DNA from: Desulfobacteraceae bacterium
GTDB lineage: Bacteria; Desulfobacterota; Desulfobacteria; Desulfobacterales; BuS5
DNA: 9,328 bases
Reading direction: 5' to 3'
Assembly: GCA_030592105.1 (NCBI GenBank)
Contig: JAUVKE010000077.1
Coordinates: 1-9,328 of the forward strand
The notes under the pieces were generated by a model. That model had not been told where the DNA came from. It saw only the letters and a program-made list of their open reading frames with translations, and searched no databases. Of the stretch, positions 307-8,448 are shown piece by piece; position 1 is the first letter of the stretch; each line of letters starts with the position of its first letter. Position numbers and translations under genes: made by a program.

Positions 307-372
307 ATATGAACCGTACATAAATAATTTCACTGCTTTATCGGTCAAAACTTGGGGAGGCGTACAAAAAAA

Positions 373-1098
373 ATGAATCTATTTATTTCTGCATTACAGT
401 TTATGACAATTCTTCCTGTTGGAAAAACCGAGACTCCCGACATAAAGAAAATGCACCAGTACTTCCCCCTTGTGGGAATTTTTTTGGGTGTTATTATATC
501 AATGTTTGACCAGATTGCCCTTATGCTATGGTCGCAGCAGGTTGCATCCCTTCTTGATGTAGTCCTTCTTATAGTTTTAACAGGAGCATTTCATGTGGAC
601 GGCCTTGGGGATACAGCAGACGGTCTTTTAGGTATCCGTACAAAAGATCAGGCTCTTTTAATTATGAAGGACAGCAGGCTGGGAACAATGGCCCTTGCCA
701 CAATCTTTTCTGTTCTGCTGATCAAGTGGTGCGGTATAATGGGAATCGGTTCCAATAGAATTTTACTCCTTATTATAATACCGGCCTACGCAAGGGGAGC
801 TATACTCTTTGGAATATATTATTTCGAATACGGAAGAGAGGAAGGAACAGGAAAAGCCCACTTTGCCAATCCATTAAAGATAACCGATTTCTGGGGTTTA
901 TCCATACCTTTTGTTCTTTCTTTTTTTATTGGCTTTAAAATGATATTGCTTAATCTGGCTTTTATTATACTGGTGGCTATTCTTATCATGTTTTATAAAA
1001 AACGTATTGAATGTATCACCGGAGATATGTTAGGAGCAATGACCGAAATTGTGGAAGCTTTTCTTTTTCTTATTATATCCATGGGATGCTGCATATGA
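373..1098 (+). CDS. cobS: Adenosylcobinamide-GDP ribazoletransferase (cobalamin synthase)
   Basis: CobS is an integral membrane enzyme that joins adenosylcobinamide-GDP to alpha-ribazole (phosphate), the last assembly step of the cobamide nucleotide loop. The 241-residue product has the usual family length and several hydrophobic segments. It carries the hallmark acidic motif HVDGLGDTADGL (residues 74-85, with D76, D80 and D83), then MKDSRLGT (98-105), an ARG motif (140-142), and GDMLGAMTE (217-225) near the C terminus. An in-frame TTG at 352 would add seven residues. I prefer ATG 373 because GGGGAGG (354-360) then serves as its ribosome site and the protein begins in the family style, MNLFISALQFMTILPVG. 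The gene overlaps cbiR by 4 nt, so the two are probably translationally coupled. Confidence 0.93.
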   Translation: MNLFISALQFMTILPVGKTETPDIKKMHQYFPLVGIFLGVIISMFDQIALMLWSQQVASLLDVVLLIVLTGAFHVDGLGDTADGLLGIRTKDQALLIMKDSRLGTMALATIFSVLLIKWCGIMGIGSNRILLLIIIPAYARGAILFGIYYFEYGREEGTGKAHFANPLKITDFWGLSIPFVLSFFIGFKMILLNLAFIILVAILIMFYKKRIECITGDMLGAMTEIVEAFLFLIISMGCCI

Positions 1099-1928
1099 AC
1101 AATTTTCAGGACAAAAACAACCTGTTACCTGACCTTTCAAAATCCTACAGGGGAATTTTTCCCTTTAGCATAGGGACAACATCTTATATTTATCCTGACA
1201 AGATTCTTCCCAATGTTGAAAAGCTTGCCCCTTATTTAGATGAGATAGAGATCTTACTTTTTGAAAGCGACCGGGAAAGCCTCCCTGACAAAGAGGAAAT
1301 CAAGCAGCTTGCAGCCATTGCCGACAATTTTTCAATTTCATATAACATTCACCTTCCCATGGATATTTATCTGGGGTCTGAAGATTTATCTGCAAGAAAT
1401 TATGCCCTAAATACAATCAAACAGATTGTCAACCTTACATCTCCCCTCCCCTGCTCCACCTATACCCTTCATATAGAGTCTTTTTCAAAAGATATGGAGA
1501 AATGGAAGTATCATTCATTTAAAAGCATGGAAAAGCTTGCTGCATCAGGAATAAAACCTGAAAAAATATCCGTTGAAACACTCCTTTACCCCTTTGAATG
1601 GATAGAAAAAATAATAATGGATTTTCCCTTTTCAATATGCATGGATACAGGCCACCTTATGCTGCAGCAAATTGATCCGCTGACCTTTTTTAATAAATAT
1701 ATCGACAGAATCTCCATTATTCACCTCCATGGAGTTGAAAATAAAAGGGATCATATTTCTTTGGCCAGGCTCGGGGGGGAAAAAATCGAAACCATATTAA
1801 ATATATTAAAGAGATTCACAGGAATTGTTTCCATTGAAGTATTCTCCTTTGACGACCTGGATAGTTCACTGAAACTCCTTGATGCTTGTCAGGATATTGT
1901 TTTTTTTGACAATCCTGCTCAATTATAA
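1095..1928 (+). CDS. cbiR: CbiR-like cobamide-remodelling enzyme (AP-endonuclease/xylose-isomerase-type TIM barrel)
   Basis: The 277-residue protein has the pattern of a metal-dependent TIM barrel of the sugar-phosphate isomerase/AP endonuclease 2 superfamily. Candidate metal or catalytic residues fall at strand ends: H86 (NIHLP), H126 and E128 (LHIES), E161 (SVETLL), D184 and H187 (MDTGHL), H210 and H212 (IIHLHG), D219-H220 and E248 (SIEVF). Members beside cobamide genes are CbiR, which hydrolyses the phosphoribosyl bond of a cobamide so the lower ligand can be replaced. The direct overlap with cobS, which re-attaches a new nucleotide, supports that role. ATG 1095 was chosen because it overlaps the cobS stop (ATGA); upstream in-frame starts would overlap cobS coding sequence. 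The barrel family is certain in broad terms; the substrate is inferred from context. Confidence 0.78.
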   Translation: MNNFQDKNNLLPDLSKSYRGIFPFSIGTTSYIYPDKILPNVEKLAPYLDEIEILLFESDRESLPDKEEIKQLAAIADNFSISYNIHLPMDIYLGSEDLSARNYALNTIKQIVNLTSPLPCSTYTLHIESFSKDMEKWKYHSFKSMEKLAASGIKPEKISVETLLYPFEWIEKIIMDFPFSICMDTGHLMLQQIDPLTFFNKYIDRISIIHLHGVENKRDHISLARLGGEKIETILNILKRFTGIVSIEVFSFDDLDSSLKLLDACQDIVFFDNPAQL

Positions 1929-1942
1929 TATTAATACTGATT

Positions 1943-3298
1943 ATGACTACAGCGTCCCTAAAAAAAATTTCCTGCAACAACAATAATCTAAAGCTGATCC
2001 TTGATAATCTTCAGGATGGTGTAATTGCCCATGATTTAAACCGGCGTATATTCTATTTTAATAAAAAAGCTGAAGAGATAACTGAATACAGCAAAAAAGA
2101 TGCTGAGGGGAGGGACTGCCACGAGGTATTTGGCACCCCCTTTTGCGGAGAGCTATGTTCTTTTTGCGGAAAAGGTCCGTCACTTTCAAAAGCTTCAAAC
2201 TATTCAATTAATATTATCACTAAAAATGGTGAAAATCGAAAGCTTGAAATGTCTGTGGTTATGATGAAAGATGAGGATGAAATAGATTTTGGAGTACTTG
2301 CGACATTTAAAGATATTACTGAAATCATAAATCTGGAGATCATGGCGGGGAAGCTTTCCAAATTTTCAAATATTGTAGGCCAGACCCCTGTGATGATCGA
2401 TATTTTTCAGCAGATCAGAGAGCTGGCTACGTATACAGTCCCTGTTCATATTCATGGAGAAACCGGCACAGGGAAAGAGCTTGTTGCCAGGGCAATCCAC
2501 GATGAAAGCGTTCACAAAGATGGGCCTTTTGTGCCGATAAACTGCGGAGCACTCCCTGAAGGGCTTGTCGAAAGTGAGCTTTTCGGGCATGTAAGAGGAG
2601 CTTTTTCAGGGGCAATACGTGACAAAAAAGGCCGATTTGAGCTTGCCCAGGGTGGAACAATTTTTCTGGATGAAATAGCGGAACTGCCTAAACAGGCCCA
2701 GGTAAAAATTTTACGTTTTTTACAGGAAGGTGTTGTTGAAAAAGTAGGATCTGAAAAACTAATAACCGTGGATACAAGAATTATCAGCGCAACAAATAAA
2801 AAACTTAAGGAAGAGACTCAAAAGGGAAATTTTCGAAAAGACCTGTATTACAGGATCAATGTTATTCCCCTCAATATTCCCCCTTTGGAAAAACGAAAAA
2901 ATGACATACCCCTTCTGGTAAAACATTTTTTAAGGCAGGCATCTGAAAAAACTGGTAAAAAACAGAAAAAAATTTCCAGCGAAGCTATTTCACTTATGAT
3001 GGACTACTCATGGCCCGGCAATATCAGAGAACTTGAAAATATCATCCAGTTTGCCACCATCAAATGCAGGGGTGAGACAATAACTTCGGATAATTTTCCT
3101 GATGAGCTTACAAAAAACAACGTTGAAAAAAAACAGGCCCCTGGCCGTTTTAAGAAACTTGATCAGGAATCTGTTAAAAATGCCCTTGTCCAAACAGGTG
3201 GAAATAAAGCAAAAGCTGCAAAAAAACTTGATGTTGGAAGAGCAACACTTTATCGCTTTATAAATGACCATCCGGATATTATACCTGATGGCATTTAA
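1943..3298 (+). CDS. PAS-domain sigma54-dependent transcriptional activator with cysteine cluster
   Basis: The 451-residue enhancer-binding protein has three parts. Residues about 15-130 form a PAS sensor containing C59-H60, C68, C72 and C75. Residues about 140-380 form the AAA+ ATPase: Walker A GETGTGK (172-178), sigma54-contact loop GAFSGA (219-224, a serine variant of GAFTGA), Walker B GGTIFLDE (237-244), arginines R298 and R304, and WPGNIRELEN. Residues about 405-445 form a Fis-type helix-turn-helix (NKAKAAKKLDVGRATLYRFI). It would use ATP to open sigma54 promoters in response to a signal at the PAS domain. It starts 14 nt after cbiR with no strong ribosome site, so coupled translation is likely. 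A sigma54 promoter drives the convergent redox gene, making that gene a plausible target. The ligand is unknown; the cysteines suggest redox or metal sensing. Confidence 0.92.
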   Translation: MTTASLKKISCNNNNLKLILDNLQDGVIAHDLNRRIFYFNKKAEEITEYSKKDAEGRDCHEVFGTPFCGELCSFCGKGPSLSKASNYSINIITKNGENRKLEMSVVMMKDEDEIDFGVLATFKDITEIINLEIMAGKLSKFSNIVGQTPVMIDIFQQIRELATYTVPVHIHGETGTGKELVARAIHDESVHKDGPFVPINCGALPEGLVESELFGHVRGAFSGAIRDKKGRFELAQGGTIFLDEIAELPKQAQVKILRFLQEGVVEKVGSEKLITVDTRIISATNKKLKEETQKGNFRKDLYYRINVIPLNIPPLEKRKNDIPLLVKHFLRQASEKTGKKQKKISSEAISLMMDYSWPGNIRELENIIQFATIKCRGETITSDNFPDELTKNNVEKKQAPGRFKKLDQESVKNALVQTGGNKAKAAKKLDVGRATLYRFINDHPDIIPDGI

Positions 3299-3374: not shown

Positions 3375-4763
3375 TTACATTTTTACAAAATTACTCTTTT
3401 TTACTCCGCAAACCGGGCATTCCCAGTTATCGGGAATATCCTTAAAATCCGTTCCTGGTTCAATTCCGCCATCTGGATCCCCCTCTGCGGGGTCATAGAT
3501 ATATCCGCATACCTCGCAACGATAAAGATCCCCTTTTGTTTTTTTATTGAGGTCTTCCTTTCTATGGGTGGGGGCATTAGGCGGCTCAGTTCCTTTTTTA
3601 ACATTATGATAGTATGCATAAGACATGGGAATCCCCTGCCTGATTACATCGGCGCTTTGAATCTGCCCCATAAAAATGGTGTGGAACCCTGCGCTTATTT
3701 CGCTGACCACCTTTGCCTCTACAAAACTTAACACATTATCCATGATAATTGGTGCACCGGTTATTCCTGATTTGTATTCTATCTCTCCGAACTTGTTAAT
3801 ATCCCTTCCCGATTTAAATCCGAAATTTGCAATAAAAGGCATGGGAGTCTCTTCTGACAGAATTGAAACGCTGAACACACCGGAATCTTTTATATATTCA
3901 TGGGTCAGGTTATTTTTATTGATGCTCACGGCAATTGTCGGGGGATCATCACTCACCTGAAAAACAGTATTTGCTATCTGCCCATTTGATTTACCATCTT
4001 TGACTGAACCTACTACATATACTCCATAGTTTATATTAAAGAAGGCCTTTTCATTTATTTTAGATGTATCTATATTGTCGGAAACAGCTGTTCTGGTTTC
4101 AACACCTAATTCTCTTTTTAAAACATCAATTCCAACTTCTAAAATGAGCTTTCCCAACCGCATGGGCTTTGTATATTTTTTAAACCGTTCTATGGTCCTC
4201 TTTATAAGGTCAAGGGCCTCGTCATCGGTGAGCCCTTCTGCCAATACCTGTGCAATCATGGGACGGGATGCAGCATTTCCACCTGCCACCACCTTCCATC
4301 CCTTTTTCGTCCCTATCAAGCCAATATCCTTTACCCAGGATTCAGAGCAGCAATTGGTACAGCCTGATACACCGATCTTGAACTTTGATGGAAGTTCATA
4401 ACCATGATAAAGTTCATCCAGCTTTATTCCAATACCAACGGCATCCTGCTGTCCAAGGCGGCAAAAAGTAGTGCCGGGACAAAATTTTATACTTCTTACA
4501 CACATCCCCGCTGCTGCTGCGGGCTTCATGCCGAGATCCTGCCAAATATTATCGAGATCTTCTTCTTTGATCCCCACAATGGCAAGACGCTGGGCACCAG
4601 TTGCTTTAATGGCAGCAGCATTGTATTTTTCAGATGCATCAGCAATCTTGCGCAAAATCTCCGGGCTGCATATACCACCAGGCAGGTGGGGAACTATTGC
4701 AAAAGTTTCACGATCTTTTTGTACAATTGCTCCTTTGTCTAATCTATCTTTTTTTCCCGACAT
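3375..4763 (-). CDS. Fused siroheme sulfite/nitrite reductase-like, flavin reductase and rubredoxin protein
   Basis: Three modules can be read in the 462 residues. Residues 1-220 match the small assimilatory-type sulfite reductase pattern: a ferredoxin-like half domain, then the siroheme-[4Fe-4S] ligands C95-x5-C101 (CPGTTFC) and C135-x3-C139 (SGCTNCC). Residues about 240-395 form an FMN-binding split-barrel flavin reductase ([30 protein letters not shown]). Residues about 413-462 form a rubredoxin with C416-x2-C419 ([10 protein letters not shown]) and C449-x2-C452 (CPVCG). The last two modules resemble the high-molecular-weight rubredoxin Hrb, which passes electrons from NAD(P)H to flavodiiron proteins. 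Electrons could flow from FMN to rubredoxin or internally to siroheme; substrates such as sulfite, nitrite or NO are possible but unproven. All metal ligands are intact. AAGGAG lies 11 nt before the ATG, and a sigma54 promoter lies upstream. Confidence 0.88.
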
Positions 4764-4830
4764 CTCTTAATAATCTCCTTTTTGTTTTAAATTCAATAAC
4801 CATGCTTTATGATAAGTTTTATGACAAAAA

Positions 4831-4848
4831 AGCAAAAACCATACCAGG
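4831..4848 (-). promoter_or_regulatory. sigma54 (-24/-12) promoter of the siroheme-flavin-rubredoxin gene
   Basis: Read on the - strand, CTGGTATGGTTTTTGCT has GG (4845-4844) and GC (4833-4832) exactly 10 bases apart. It fits the consensus YTGGYAYG-N4-TTGCW. Transcription would begin near 4820, about 57 nt before the start codon at 4763. The neighbouring gene at 1943-3298 encodes a sigma54 activator, which fits local control. Confidence 0.65.
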
Positions 4849-4859
4849 TATATTTACTG

Positions 4860-4891
4860 GCCATTAAAATATGGCAAAAAGCCATACCAGG
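4860..4891 (-). repeat. Duplicated sigma54 promoter core with altered spacing and overlapping hairpins
   Basis: Bases 4874-4891 repeat the promoter at 4832-4848 almost exactly, with one extra base, so GG and GC are 11 instead of 10 bases apart. This copy is therefore probably not a working sigma54 promoter. The segment also holds GCCAT (4860-4864), ATGGC (4871-4875) and GCCATA (4881-4886), which give two mutually exclusive hairpins or a repeated half-site for a protein. Confidence 0.5.
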
Positions 4892-4986: not shown

Positions 4987-5000
4987 TGAGACATGTCTCA
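4987..5000. promoter_or_regulatory. Perfect 14-bp palindrome, candidate enhancer-binding site
   Basis: TGAGACATGTCTCA is an uninterrupted perfect dyad in an AT-rich stretch. It lies about 140 bp upstream of the -24 element and about 170 bp before the inferred start of the sigma54-controlled transcript. This is a usual distance for Fis-type activators that act by DNA looping. No second copy was noticed nearby, so binding by the neighbouring activator is inference. Confidence 0.4.
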
Positions 5001-5825: not shown

Positions 5826-5901
5826 TGGTACGCCCGGCTGGATTCGAACCAGCGATCTTCAGCTCCGGAGGCTGACGCCCTATCCCCTGGGCTACGGGCG
5901 C
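5826..5901 (-). tRNA. tRNA-Arg (anticodon CCG)
   Basis: The 76-nt sequence folds as a standard cloverleaf: acceptor GCGCCCG against CGGGCGT, D stem GCCC/GGGC, anticodon stem TCAGC/GCTGA with loop CTCCGGA, and T arm CTGG-TTCGAAT-CCAG. The loop gives anticodon CCG, reading the arginine codon CGG. The 3' CCA is encoded (5828-5826). No partial copy of its 3' end, as left by an integrated element, was found in the window. Confidence 0.95.
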
Positions 5902-5984: not shown

Positions 5985-6068
5985 CTGAGCTATGGTGAAA
6001 TTTAAAAAACTCTGGTTGTTTAAGCGCAGCGAGTTTCAGAAATTTTCAAATTTTATTATAGCTCAGTT
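5983..6068. repeat. 86-bp imperfect inverted repeat (MITE-like) at the 3' end of the selA operon
   Basis: The arms 5983-6014 and 6037-6068 are inverted repeats matching at about 26 of 32 positions, with a perfect 11-bp end AACTGAGCTAT. They are separated by a 22-base loop containing AAGCGCAGCG. The right arm includes the stop codon (6063-6065) of the deoxyhypusine-synthase-like gene. RNA from either strand would form a long hairpin. There is no T tract after it, so a mobile element or mRNA-end stabiliser fits better than a classic terminator. Confidence 0.6.
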
Positions 6069-7034
6069 ATTGCTGGAATCAGAACCAAGCCCGATTTTTT
6101 CTATAACACCTGCTGCTATAAGGGGGAGCATGATTTCATGGTGACCTATGAGATTAATCCCCTCCCCTCCTTCACTGGTTGGCCTGTTCACCACATTTGT
6201 CATTGGCCGATAGTGACGGATAAAATCCATATTTACCGCTGTAAAATTTTTTACATTATGTCCTAAATTACGTACAATTGTCAAAGCTTTTAAAAATACT
6301 TCCGGAAGAATAACAGCAGATCCCACATTCATATAGACCCCCTGGTCAAGACCTGCAACCACGGAGGCAAAGGTTCTAAAATCTCTGTGGCTTGCGCCCC
6401 CGGCTTCTTTGGGATCAAATTCCGGGTGCATGTGGAGAATATCCGTCCCCATTGCCATATGGACTGTTACCGGAATTTTATATTGTACTGCCGCCGCAAG
6501 TAAACTTATATCTTTATGGGGGAGATCGGCCTCTATAATAGCCGCTCCAACAGCCTCCCCCAAACCGGAAGATTCCCTTCCCCCTTTTTTTATTGCATCA
6601 CTTAAAAAAGTACAGGTCTCATGGGCCATGCCAAAGGTTCCATCCCCCAGGGATTCAGCCACATCCTCTGAGGTTCGGCCGGTCATGGCAAGCTCGAAAT
6701 CATGGATAATACCGGCTCCATTTATAGCAACGGCTGTAATTATACCCCTTTTAATCAGATCGATCAAAACAGGATTCAGCCCCACTTTAATAACATGGGC
6801 GCCCATTGCAAAGAGAACGACTTTTTTGTTTTCATAAGCGGATGCAATTGAAGAGATAACCGTTTTTAGCTGATTTGCCGCAAGCAAATCAGGGAGGCTG
6901 TCTATGAATTTTTCAAAGGTTCCCCCTTTGTTCCATACTTCAGCAAAATCTGCAGATGTAACCTTGCTTTTTCTGCTTAAAAGGGAGTAGGTTTTTATTC
7001 CATTTAAATCGATGGGTTTATAAGAACGAATCAT
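6063..7034 (-). CDS. Deoxyhypusine-synthase-like protein of bacterial type
   Basis: The 323-residue protein has the overall pattern of the deoxyhypusine synthase family: an NAD-binding-type core with VVLFAMGAHVIKVGLNP (about 72-88), INGAGIIHDFELAM (104-117), IPVTVHMAMGTDI (187-199) and LGHNVKNF (257-264). Classical enzymes transfer a butylamine group from spermidine to a lysine of eIF5A through a catalytic lysine in an SWGK motif. Here the equivalent C-terminal region reads NRPTSEGGEGINLIGHHEIM and has no lysine between residues 263 and 312. Bacteria also lack eIF5A, so a true hypusine role is unlikely. The gene starts 4 nt after selA without a clear ribosome site, implying coupled translation. 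The fold family is recognisable; the reaction is unknown. Confidence 0.75.
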   Translation of the reverse strand: MIRSYKPIDLNGIKTYSLLSRKSKVTSADFAEVWNKGGTFEKFIDSLPDLLAANQLKTVISSIASAYENKKVVLFAMGAHVIKVGLNPVLIDLIKRGIITAVAINGAGIIHDFELAMTGRTSEDVAESLGDGTFGMAHETCTFLSDAIKKGGRESSGLGEAVGAAIIEADLPHKDISLLAAAVQYKIPVTVHMAMGTDILHMHPEFDPKEAGGASHRDFRTFASVVAGLDQGVYMNVGSAVILPEVFLKALTIVRNLGHNVKNFTAVNMDFIRHYRPMTNVVNRPTSEGGEGINLIGHHEIMLPLIAAGVIEKIGLGSDSSNN

Positions 7035-7038
7035 ATTG

Positions 7039-8448
7039 CTATAAAGAGGCCAATGCTGTTTTAATAAGGATTAATTCATCATCATGTACTGTTCGCAAAT
7101 CAATGATAAAAGTGTCATCTTCTATTCTTCCGATCACAGGGGGATCATTTTTTCGCATGAATGTTTCAAGGGCATTCGGGGAGTAATTTTCCAGATTCAG
7201 ACCAATGCATTTACTGGGAAGCTGAAGTAATGGAAGTGACCCACCCCCGGCCCTGGAGGACATGTCCATCAGTCTGATTTTCAGCCCGGGATTTCCTATA
7301 TCTTCCAGCATACTGAAAAGTTTCATTGCTCTTTCTTCAATAACAGGCAACTGTACTGTGAGCATACGCAAAGTAGGGATGGTCTCCACAGCATTGTCAA
7401 AATCATTGTAAAGAGAAAGGACGCTTTCCAAAGCCGCAAGGGTAAGTTTATCTATACGAAGCACCCGAGCCATGGGATTTTTCTTAATCCTGTCAACAAA
7501 AGCTTTTTTGCCAAGAATAATTCCTGCCTGGGGACCCCCCAAAAGTTTATCTCCGCTGAATGTGACAAGGTCTGCCCCTGCAGCCACAGATTCCTGCACA
7601 GTCGGCTCTTTAGGGAAACCGTACCTTGAAAAGTCTATGAAAGACCCGCTTCCCAGATCCTCCATAACAGGAATGTCATTTTTTATCCCCAGATCAACCA
7701 GGTCCTTTAATAAAACACTTGCAGTAAATCCCAAAACAGCATAATTACTGGTATGCACCTTTAGCAAAAGGGCTGTGTTTTCAGCTATTTCGTTCTCGTA
7801 GTCCCTCAAGTGAGTTCGGTTTGTGGTTCCCACCTCTTTTAAAAATGCCCCACTTTTTGCCATAACATCCGGAATCCTGAAAGAACCGCCTATCTCAACG
7901 AGCTCACCCCTTGATACTATTACTTCTTTTTCCCTTGCCATTGTATCAAGACATATAAAAACAGCAGCAGCATTATTGTTCACCACCATGGCAGCCTCAG
8001 CACCACATATCTCACAAAGAATATCTTCCACAATGCTGTATCTTGAACCCCGTTTTCCTTTTTCAAGATCAAATTCCAGATTTGAATATTTTCGGGAAAC
8101 AGAAATAATATTTTGCACAGCCTTTTCAGGCAAAAGGGATCTGCCGAGATTGGTATGGACAACAATCCCTGTACCATTTATCACAGGGATAAGATTCGGC
8201 GCCATAATCTGCTGGACATGTTTTTTCACAAACCTGAGTATAAATGAATCGGTTATATCCCTGTTATCGCAGGTATCTATACTGCTAAGAATAGCGATTC
8301 TCTGCTCATCAACTGCAATACGGGCAGCAGTAACAAGGACAGCTTTTGGAATATTTATAAAAAAGGATTCTTTTTTTGATATCTCCAGTATCCGGTCGAT
8401 CCCAGGCAGCCCACGTAAAAGCTTTTGCTGTTTCTCATTCATACTCAT
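7039..8448 (-). CDS. selA: L-seryl-tRNA(Sec) selenium transferase
   Basis: SelA is a cytoplasmic PLP enzyme that converts Ser-tRNA(Sec) to Sec-tRNA(Sec) using selenophosphate. The 469-residue product has full family length and its signatures in order: PVINGTGIVVHTNLGRSLL (about 88-106), SRGELVEIGGSFRIPDVM (179-196), EVGTTNRTHLRDYE (205-218), EDLGSGSF (263-270), and the PLP-lysine motif TFSGDKLLGGPQAG with K301. It predicts that the organism makes selenoproteins, so selB, selC and selD should be elsewhere in the genome. ATG 8448 is used; ATG 8442 two codons later is an alternative, and neither has a strong ribosome site. It lies in line with lysC upstream and the deoxyhypusine-synthase-like gene downstream. 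Confidence 0.96.
   Translation of the reverse strand: MSMNEKQQKLLRGLPGIDRILEISKKESFFINIPKAVLVTAARIAVDEQRIAILSSIDTCDNRDITDSFILRFVKKHVQQIMAPNLIPVINGTGIVVHTNLGRSLLPEKAVQNIISVSRKYSNLEFDLEKGKRGSRYSIVEDILCEICGAEAAMVVNNNAAAVFICLDTMAREKEVIVSRGELVEIGGSFRIPDVMAKSGAFLKEVGTTNRTHLRDYENEIAENTALLLKVHTSNYAVLGFTASVLLKDLVDLGIKNDIPVMEDLGSGSFIDFSRYGFPKEPTVQESVAAGADLVTFSGDKLLGGPQAGIILGKKAFVDRIKKNPMARVLRIDKLTLAALESVLSLYNDFDNAVETIPTLRMLTVQLPVIEERAMKLFSMLEDIGNPGLKIRLMDMSSRAGGGSLPLLQLPSKCIGLNLENYSPNALETFMRKNDPPVIGRIEDDTFIIDLRTVHDDELILIKTALASL

Follow-up and report, generated by a model that had tools for sequence, protein, structure and literature searches.

Within a 9,328-nucleotide stretch of DNA from a Desulfobacteraceae bacterium (contig JAUVKE010000077.1 of assembly GCA_030592105.1, hereafter the window), we identified a gene on the minus strand at 3375..4763 that encodes, from an ATG start, a single protein of 462 amino acids (aa) in which an alSir-like siroheme reductase module is followed by a flavin reductase and a rubredoxin. 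We propose that this fusion works as a siroheme reductase with its own built-in path from NAD(P)H, that its gene is induced when needed, and that the substrate is more likely to be nitrite, hydroxylamine or NO than sulfite; we assign this proposal a probability of about 0.45. The novelty lies in the pairing of a catalytic module and a donor module that were each known already. No report of this combination was found in our literature search: by titles and abstract openings, the papers listed include no siroheme–flavin reductase–rubredoxin fusion, and the word 'rubredoxin' does not occur in PMC6286981, PMC3448663, PMC9295563, PMC11237513 and PMC10949509. Papers are cited here by PMC accession.

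Architecture of the fusion protein

What does this chain contain? The initial annotation had described a siroheme sulfite reductase, a flavin reductase and a rubredoxin joined in one product of this region, and Pfam searches bear this out for the minus strand; frame 1 of the plus strand over the same interval is broken by many stops. By direct reading, a GGAG sequence resembling a ribosome-binding site lies 12-15 bases 5′ of the ATG (4775..4778, minus strand). Four domains score above their curated Pfam cut-offs. The alSir module, residues 1-222 (4098..4763, minus strand), comprises NIR_SIR_ferr (residues 14-78, E 3.2e-15) and NIR_SIR (residues 86-222, E 1e-25); the split-barrel flavin reductase module, residues about 239-399 (3567..4049, minus strand), contains Flavin_Reduct (residues 244-387, E 1.3e-34); and the rubredoxin module, residues about 412-461 (3381..3530, minus strand), is placed by the Rubredoxin match (residues 414-459, E 1.5e-23) and by rubredoxins in the PDB. 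The predicted structure of the whole chain has a pLDDT of 89.1 and a pTM of 0.80, with dips in confidence at residues 221-230 and 401-410, as would be expected of mobile linkers. Small assimilatory-type sulfite reductases and Hrb-type flavin reductase–rubredoxin proteins had been named as the parents of the two halves, and the domains, homologues, fold and key residues all agree with this parentage, the fold comparison (VIA list) hardly covering the rubredoxin module.

The ligand residues had been called complete, and this stands for both metal sites. First, C95-x5-C101 and C135-x3-C139 form the CX5CXnCX3C motif of siroheme-[4Fe-4S] sites (PMC10229431), which is invariant in all 14 fusion sequences compared, and in a phmmer alignment these cysteines correspond to C428, C434, C468 and C472 of MjFsr. 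Second, of the rubredoxin cysteines, Cys416 and Cys419 are invariant in 14/14 fusions and Cys449 and Cys452 in 13/14, the remaining sequence (P0009) stopping short of both. On the substrate side the set is incomplete. Four sulfite-binding residues are named for Fsr (Arg355, Arg423, Lys460 and Lys462; PMC10229431); in one pairwise alignment the last three correspond to R90, K127 and K129 of the fusion and Arg355 is replaced by Ile23, so that 3/4 of the basic residues are kept. In the alignment to MjFsr, the assimilatory-type Arg388 is replaced by Ala57.

The replacement of Arg355 bears on the identity of the siroheme half. Group I Dsr-like proteins have been described as possessing the coupled cluster without a ferredoxin domain or a peripheral [4Fe-4S] cluster, and in subgroup a the first sulfite-binding Arg/Lys is missing (PMC3448663); Group I has been equated with alSir (PMC6286981). 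No ferredoxin-type Pfam family was detected in the fusion protein at E <= 0.001. Because the N-terminal half combines a coupled cluster without a ferredoxin domain with the loss of the first Arg, it is, by the sequence definition, a member of Group Ia, that is, an alSir.

Distribution and origin of the fusion

A homologue search of 5.8 billion proteins, in which 7,997 candidates were scored, gave 166 matches to the fusion at E <= 1e-30. Among the best 120 of these we found 13 further near-full-length clusters, which cover 96-100% of the query with the four domains at 60-96% identity, together with P0014-P0016, which are partial chains of the same fusion. A profile of the 14 fusions matched 264 of the scored candidates at E <= 1e-60, the best 120 of which contain no additional near-full-length fusion. 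All four domains were recovered in each of five fusion proteins that were re-scanned. The chains are 460-468 aa long, except for P0009 (446 aa), which ends within the rubredoxin, and their linkers vary in sequence at a near-constant length.

Two further loci provided DNA around the gene: L001, in genome G001, and L002, in genome G002, whose fusion proteins are 93% and 90% identical to that of the window. Contigs were scanned with six peptide patterns taken from the window protein, a procedure that would miss distant members, and the fusion was searched for separately in overlapping samples of 389 genomes of the order, 4 of the family, 395 of the phylum (E <= 1e-95) and 389 of the class (E <= 1e-104). 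The full fusion was present in 2/389 genomes of the order and in 2/389 of the class (G001 and G002 in both), in 1/395 of the phylum (G001) and in 1/4 of the family (G001). In another genome of that family, G137, the alSir gene (L029) is cut by a contig end and could be either fused or free-standing; in the tree it groups with unfused genes. One half or the other is far more common: 175/389 order genomes match either half at E <= 1e-40, only 2 of them with the whole fusion, and the majority of the one-half matches listed are to the alSir half.

How might the fusion have arisen? Quick IQ-TREE runs, with SH-aLRT support only, were made for each half; the long branches L007, P0045 and P0028 leave the deep placements unsure. 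In the alSir tree, which includes no named reference alSir, all 14 fusions fall together, apart from 45 other sequences (SH-aLRT 96). Adding the unfused L031, L011, L012, L029 and P0121 gives a group of 19 (SH-aLRT 94), and the nearest unfused rows include three genes of the family of G001 (L011, L012 and L029). The flavin reductase–rubredoxin (FR-Rd) halves also fall together, in a group of 15 (SH-aLRT 99) whose sole extra row is P0016. This row was considered as a counter-example, implying two changes, and was set aside: it begins inside the alSir domain and is a partial fusion. On both trees, a single fusion event would be the simplest reading.

The unfused genes keep varied company. At 945-2099 of L025 a flavodoxin-like gene stands directly before an unfused alSir gene, and by eye a ferredoxin-like open reading frame (ORF) lies by the alSir gene in L004. 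A PNPOx-like protein, recognised by eye with no Pfam match, is encoded beside the alSir gene in L011, L012, L032 and L033; it follows in L032 and in L033, in the latter after a glycyl-radical protein, and is a possible other flavin partner. In the family of G001 (L011/L032, L012/L033 and L029/L036), unfused alSir lies near an ArsP_1 permease, identified by Pfam in L032 and L033 and by eye in L036; L033 also has an ArsR-type regulator nearby, as does L036 by eye. Unfused FR-Rd genes occur near multihaem cytochromes (Multi-haem_cyto, PF13447) in L037 (1902-4358) and L034 (8988-13234), and that of L037 lies behind a FUR-family regulator.

Upstream region and facing activator

Upstream of the fusion gene we noted a sigma-54 -24/-12 promoter-like element, CTGGTATGGTTTTTGCT (4831..4847, minus strand), and, about 140 bases further upstream, a perfect palindrome, TGAGACATGTCTCA (4987..5000, minus strand), the presumed activator-binding site. 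The initial annotation had mentioned neither of these elements, nor the facing activator. The promoter-like element was located with a hand-made score from the -24/-12 consensus, evaluated against 200 base shuffles per locus, and by a three-way alignment of the window, L001 and L002. In the three loci the best sites lie at -84, -70 and -71 and were equalled or bettered by 0, 5 and 1 of the 200 shuffles, respectively, and two runs of seven in the element, TGGTATG-N-TTTTTGC, are identical in L001 and L002. In the alignment, the longest invariant run of upstream DNA, GAGACATGTCTCAT, lies inside and beside the palindrome, and the promoter-like element is the next conserved island after the palindrome core, upstream of the start codon. 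A second, degenerate -24/-12-like copy, CTGGTATGGCTTTTTGCC, with spacing one base longer, was seen 43 bases upstream of the main one (4873-4890, minus strand).

The argument for the palindrome rests on its conservation, because its count in the window says little: it occurs there once, and one or more sites within 3 mismatches turned up in 56/200 shuffles. In L001 it has one mismatch, the first base being G. The exact sequence was found in 1/380 genomes of the order, namely G002, upstream of the fusion; the reversed control also occurs in one order genome (G028), so that a chance site elsewhere is possible. Within 2 mismatches, the only site in G001 is that upstream of the fusion (1 mismatch), and G002 has two further sites, both at 2 mismatches; the reversed control gave 4 matches in G001 and 6 in G002 at this tolerance. 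From these sequences the sigma-54 control region is conserved and apparently gene-specific.

A candidate for the protein that acts on this region is encoded opposite. A PAS–sigma-54 AAA+–Fis-HTH activator of 451 aa (1943..3298, plus strand) is convergent to the fusion gene, and L001 and L002 each have a homologue in the same facing position, 90% and 54% identical to that of the window, respectively; in L002 the other neighbours differ. We presume that this activator regulates the fusion gene and that it binds TGAGACATGTCTCA; judging from the sequences, it might be a private, single-gene sigma-54 switch. Its PAS domain carries C-x8-C-x3-C-x2-C in all three loci. The four-cysteine pattern recurs in 100 of the best 120 relatives listed, and a three-cysteine pattern in 118, which marks the sensor, as far as its sequence tells, as a common type not special to the fusion gene.

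Function and relation to known systems

We envisage that the Hrb-like C-terminal half would take hydride from NAD(P)H onto FMN, and that single electrons would then reach the siroheme-[4Fe-4S] site of the alSir module, either by way of the tethered rubredoxin or directly from FMN; this path would be the most economical for the three modules. Since split-barrel flavin reductases are dimers, the chain is probably dimeric, with mobile alSir and rubredoxin arms. The substrate would most likely be oxidised nitrogen, with nitrite reduced to ammonia and hydroxylamine and NO as related substrates, sulfite being less likely, and the physiological role would be protection from nitrosative stress. In such a scheme, the four-cysteine PAS domain may sense stress or a redox change, upon which the activator would bind TGAGACATGTCTCA and switch on the sigma-54 promoter of the fusion gene.

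Rubredoxin potentials lie near 0 mV, and that of sulfite is about -116 mV. We favour nitrite, hydroxylamine or NO over sulfite because of these rubredoxin potentials, the missing first Arg and the nitrate induction of a probable alSir relative. This relative, DEACI_1836 of the sulfate reducer Acididesulfobacillus acetoxydans, has 300 aa with PF03460 and PF01077. Under nitrate reduction its RNA increased 16-fold and its protein 29-fold, and it was proposed by the authors to be a ferredoxin-dependent, NirA-like nitrite reductase, a ferredoxin gene adjoining it (PMC10949509). Its size and domains fit the DUF1858-carrying alSir-like proteins, such as P0060 from a Bacillota metagenome-assembled genome; if it belongs to them, nitrate-induction data for alSir already exist. 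FsrII of ANME-2c, which is more distant, uses F420H2 to reduce nitrite and hydroxylamine (PMC9295563). Sulfate respiration would not need a second enzyme, because dsrA scored above its cut-off in both fusion genomes, as it did in G053 and G102 (4/4 searched). Hcp, above its cut-off in 3/4 genomes and not found in the 1.6 Mb of sequence of G001, does not discriminate. The initial annotation had offered a self-contained electron path, or a detoxifying reductase for sulfite, nitrite or NO. That reading is plausible and now sharpened, and it is unproven: the apparently single-gene sigma-54 switch and the nitrate induction speak indirectly for detoxification, and sulfite has become the least favoured of the three substrates, partly on general redox potentials.

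Several observations weigh against our proposal. With a potential near 0 mV, the rubredoxin may donate poorly even when nitrite is the substrate, and it might let electrons out of the chain instead of carrying them to siroheme; in MtFsr, siroheme titrates at -104 mV and the siroheme-coupled cubane at -445 mV (PMC10229431), and because of the latter value the rubredoxin step is not assured even for nitrite. FMN may instead feed the siroheme directly. Siroheme reductases often accept both sulfite and nitrite, and alSir is said to reduce sulfite (PMC6286981). The kinship of DEACI_1836 with alSir is probable by length, domains and relatives, not by alignment. Outside the fusion nothing links alSir with FR-Rd, because the two are never neighbours in the loci examined (0 adjacencies in 22 unfused alSir and 4 unfused FR-Rd loci, mostly with flanks of ~1.5 kb, seven longer); the neighbours of unfused alSir vary, so that loci without the fusion add nothing in favour of the link. 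The promoter argument comes from three loci, of which the window and L001 are close relatives. The activator is one member of a large family, since 4,667 of the 7,999 candidates scored match it at E <= 1e-80; the regulator of L002 has diverged far more (54%) than its fusion gene (90%), and the specificity of activator and fusion as partners is not certain. G002 belongs to the order and falls outside the 4 sampled genomes of the family of G001, though the fusions share about 90% identity; the gene may have moved horizontally between lineages, or the regulator may have been replaced.

The strongest alternative, which we nevertheless think unlikely, is that the same electron path serves an NAD(P)H-dependent sulfite reductase for detoxification or assimilation, an Fsr analogue that would draw on NAD(P)H where Fsr uses F420H2. 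The reported sulfite reduction by alSir (PMC6286981) and the retention of 3/4 sulfite-binding residues would suit it, as would the fold of the siroheme half, nearest to that of Fsr, a sulfite-detoxifying fusion (PMC10229431). Against this, Ile23 takes the place of the first sulfite-binding Arg and Ala57 that of the aSir-type Arg388, both fusion genomes have dsrA, and a rubredoxin near 0 mV would be too weak a donor for sulfite unless bypassed. We also doubt that the FR-Rd half is a general electron hub to outside partners such as a flavodiiron protein or rubrerythrin, with alSir as a second, partly independent or ferredoxin-fed outlet. Such a role would match the reported reduction of rubredoxin:oxygen/NO oxidoreductase by Hrb (PMC5640608), the unfused FR-Rd gene of G174, which is flanked by a FUR-family regulator on one side and a multihaem cytochrome on the other, and the ferredoxin adjoining DEACI_1836 (PMC10949509); the modules, however, remain joined in fusions of 60 to 96% identity, in a single gene with one conserved region upstream.

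We consider it quite improbable that the protein deals with another oxidant or metal, as a ferric or corrinoid reductase or a siroheme- or corrinoid-handling protein linked to the adjoining cobalamin genes. These are cobS (adenosylcobinamide-GDP ribazoletransferase; 352-1098, plus strand) and the gene for CbiR, a cobamide-remodelling phosphodiesterase (1011-1928, plus strand; 261 bits against a cut-off of 105), whose true start is probably internal, because the match begins at residue 52 of the longest ORF. Read by eye, L002 has no cobS- or cbiR-like ORFs beside the fusion gene and retains only the regulator, so a cobalamin role was set aside; CobG matches with 34 bits where the cut-off is 235, and the alSir cluster ligands are intact. 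That assembly or annotation joined separate genes is wildly improbable: frame errors in metagenomes can produce such fusions, and no specific evidence of this was found, but because 13 further near-full-length clusters exist among the matches listed (446-468 aa, 12 of them 460-468), with the same architecture in separate assemblies and no internal stop in the gene of G001 or G002, the fusion is not a chimeric assembly.

Elsewhere in the window, a tRNA-Arg gene (anticodon CCG; 5826-5901, minus strand) lies upstream of the fusion gene, and selA (L-seryl-tRNA(Sec) selenium transferase; 7039-8448, minus strand) is adjoined by a gene for a GSU2086-family, deoxyhypusine-synthase-like protein (6063-7034, minus strand).

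If our proposal is correct, the fusion might serve, more tentatively still, as a 'Rosetta stone' for alSir: sulfate reducers may possess an undescribed class of NAD(P)H-linked siroheme reductase for nitrite or NO stress, in which FR-Rd is the dedicated donor of alSir. Its sigma-54 activator would serve this one target and would probably sense metal or redox state through the four cysteines of its PAS domain, making the system the siroheme equivalent of NorR-NorVW. The conserved promoter-like region is a possible reporter for finding the inducing compound. The natural fusion names a candidate donor for alSir-like proteins, which are widespread in these anaerobes and whose physiological role was called unclear in 2018 (PMC6286981), and allows that role to be tested on a single soluble protein.

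How does this protein compare with known systems? The alSir proteins of the P590 or D. vulgaris DVU_1597 type share its siroheme-[4Fe-4S] module, without a ferredoxin domain and without the first Arg; those compared here are free-standing or carry DUF1858, with no built-in donor, whereas the fusion adds flavin reductase and rubredoxin. In Desulfovibrio, flavoredoxin is a sulfite-reductase donor. NirB likewise unites NAD(P)H-flavin and siroheme chemistry in one protein, through an FAD pyridine-nucleotide domain. It is the best NCBIfam match of the fusion, but the whole-protein score (166.8 bits against a cut-off of 578.35) led us to reject membership; the fusion has an unrelated flavin module and a rubredoxin, and Pfam found no NirB-type FAD pyridine-nucleotide domain. 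Hrb, the high-molecular-weight rubredoxin of the Moorella thermoacetica type, has the two domains of the C-terminal half in the same order, and free-standing FR-Rd proteins are about 44-59% identical to that half, the Moorella Hrb itself lying outside this comparison. Hrb-type proteins are free-standing with two domains, and Hrb is said to oxidise NADH and to serve a separate flavodiiron-type protein (PMC5640608), whereas in the fusion the acceptor is likely to be the attached siroheme module. Fsr differs in its N-terminal FpoF-like F420 donor domain and in its Group III siroheme part with an additional cluster (PMC3448663); no F420H2 dehydrogenase (FpoF/FrhB-like) Pfam domain was found in the fusion at E <= 0.001. 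Finally, the flavodiiron–rubredoxin–rubredoxin reductase fusions of Trichomonas and C. difficile also carry their donor chain in one polypeptide (PMC9364112, PMC6033852), with a diiron O2/NO site where the present fusion has siroheme. Fsr and the flavodiiron proteins already provide examples of a donor fused to its reductase, and this protein adds a siroheme case.
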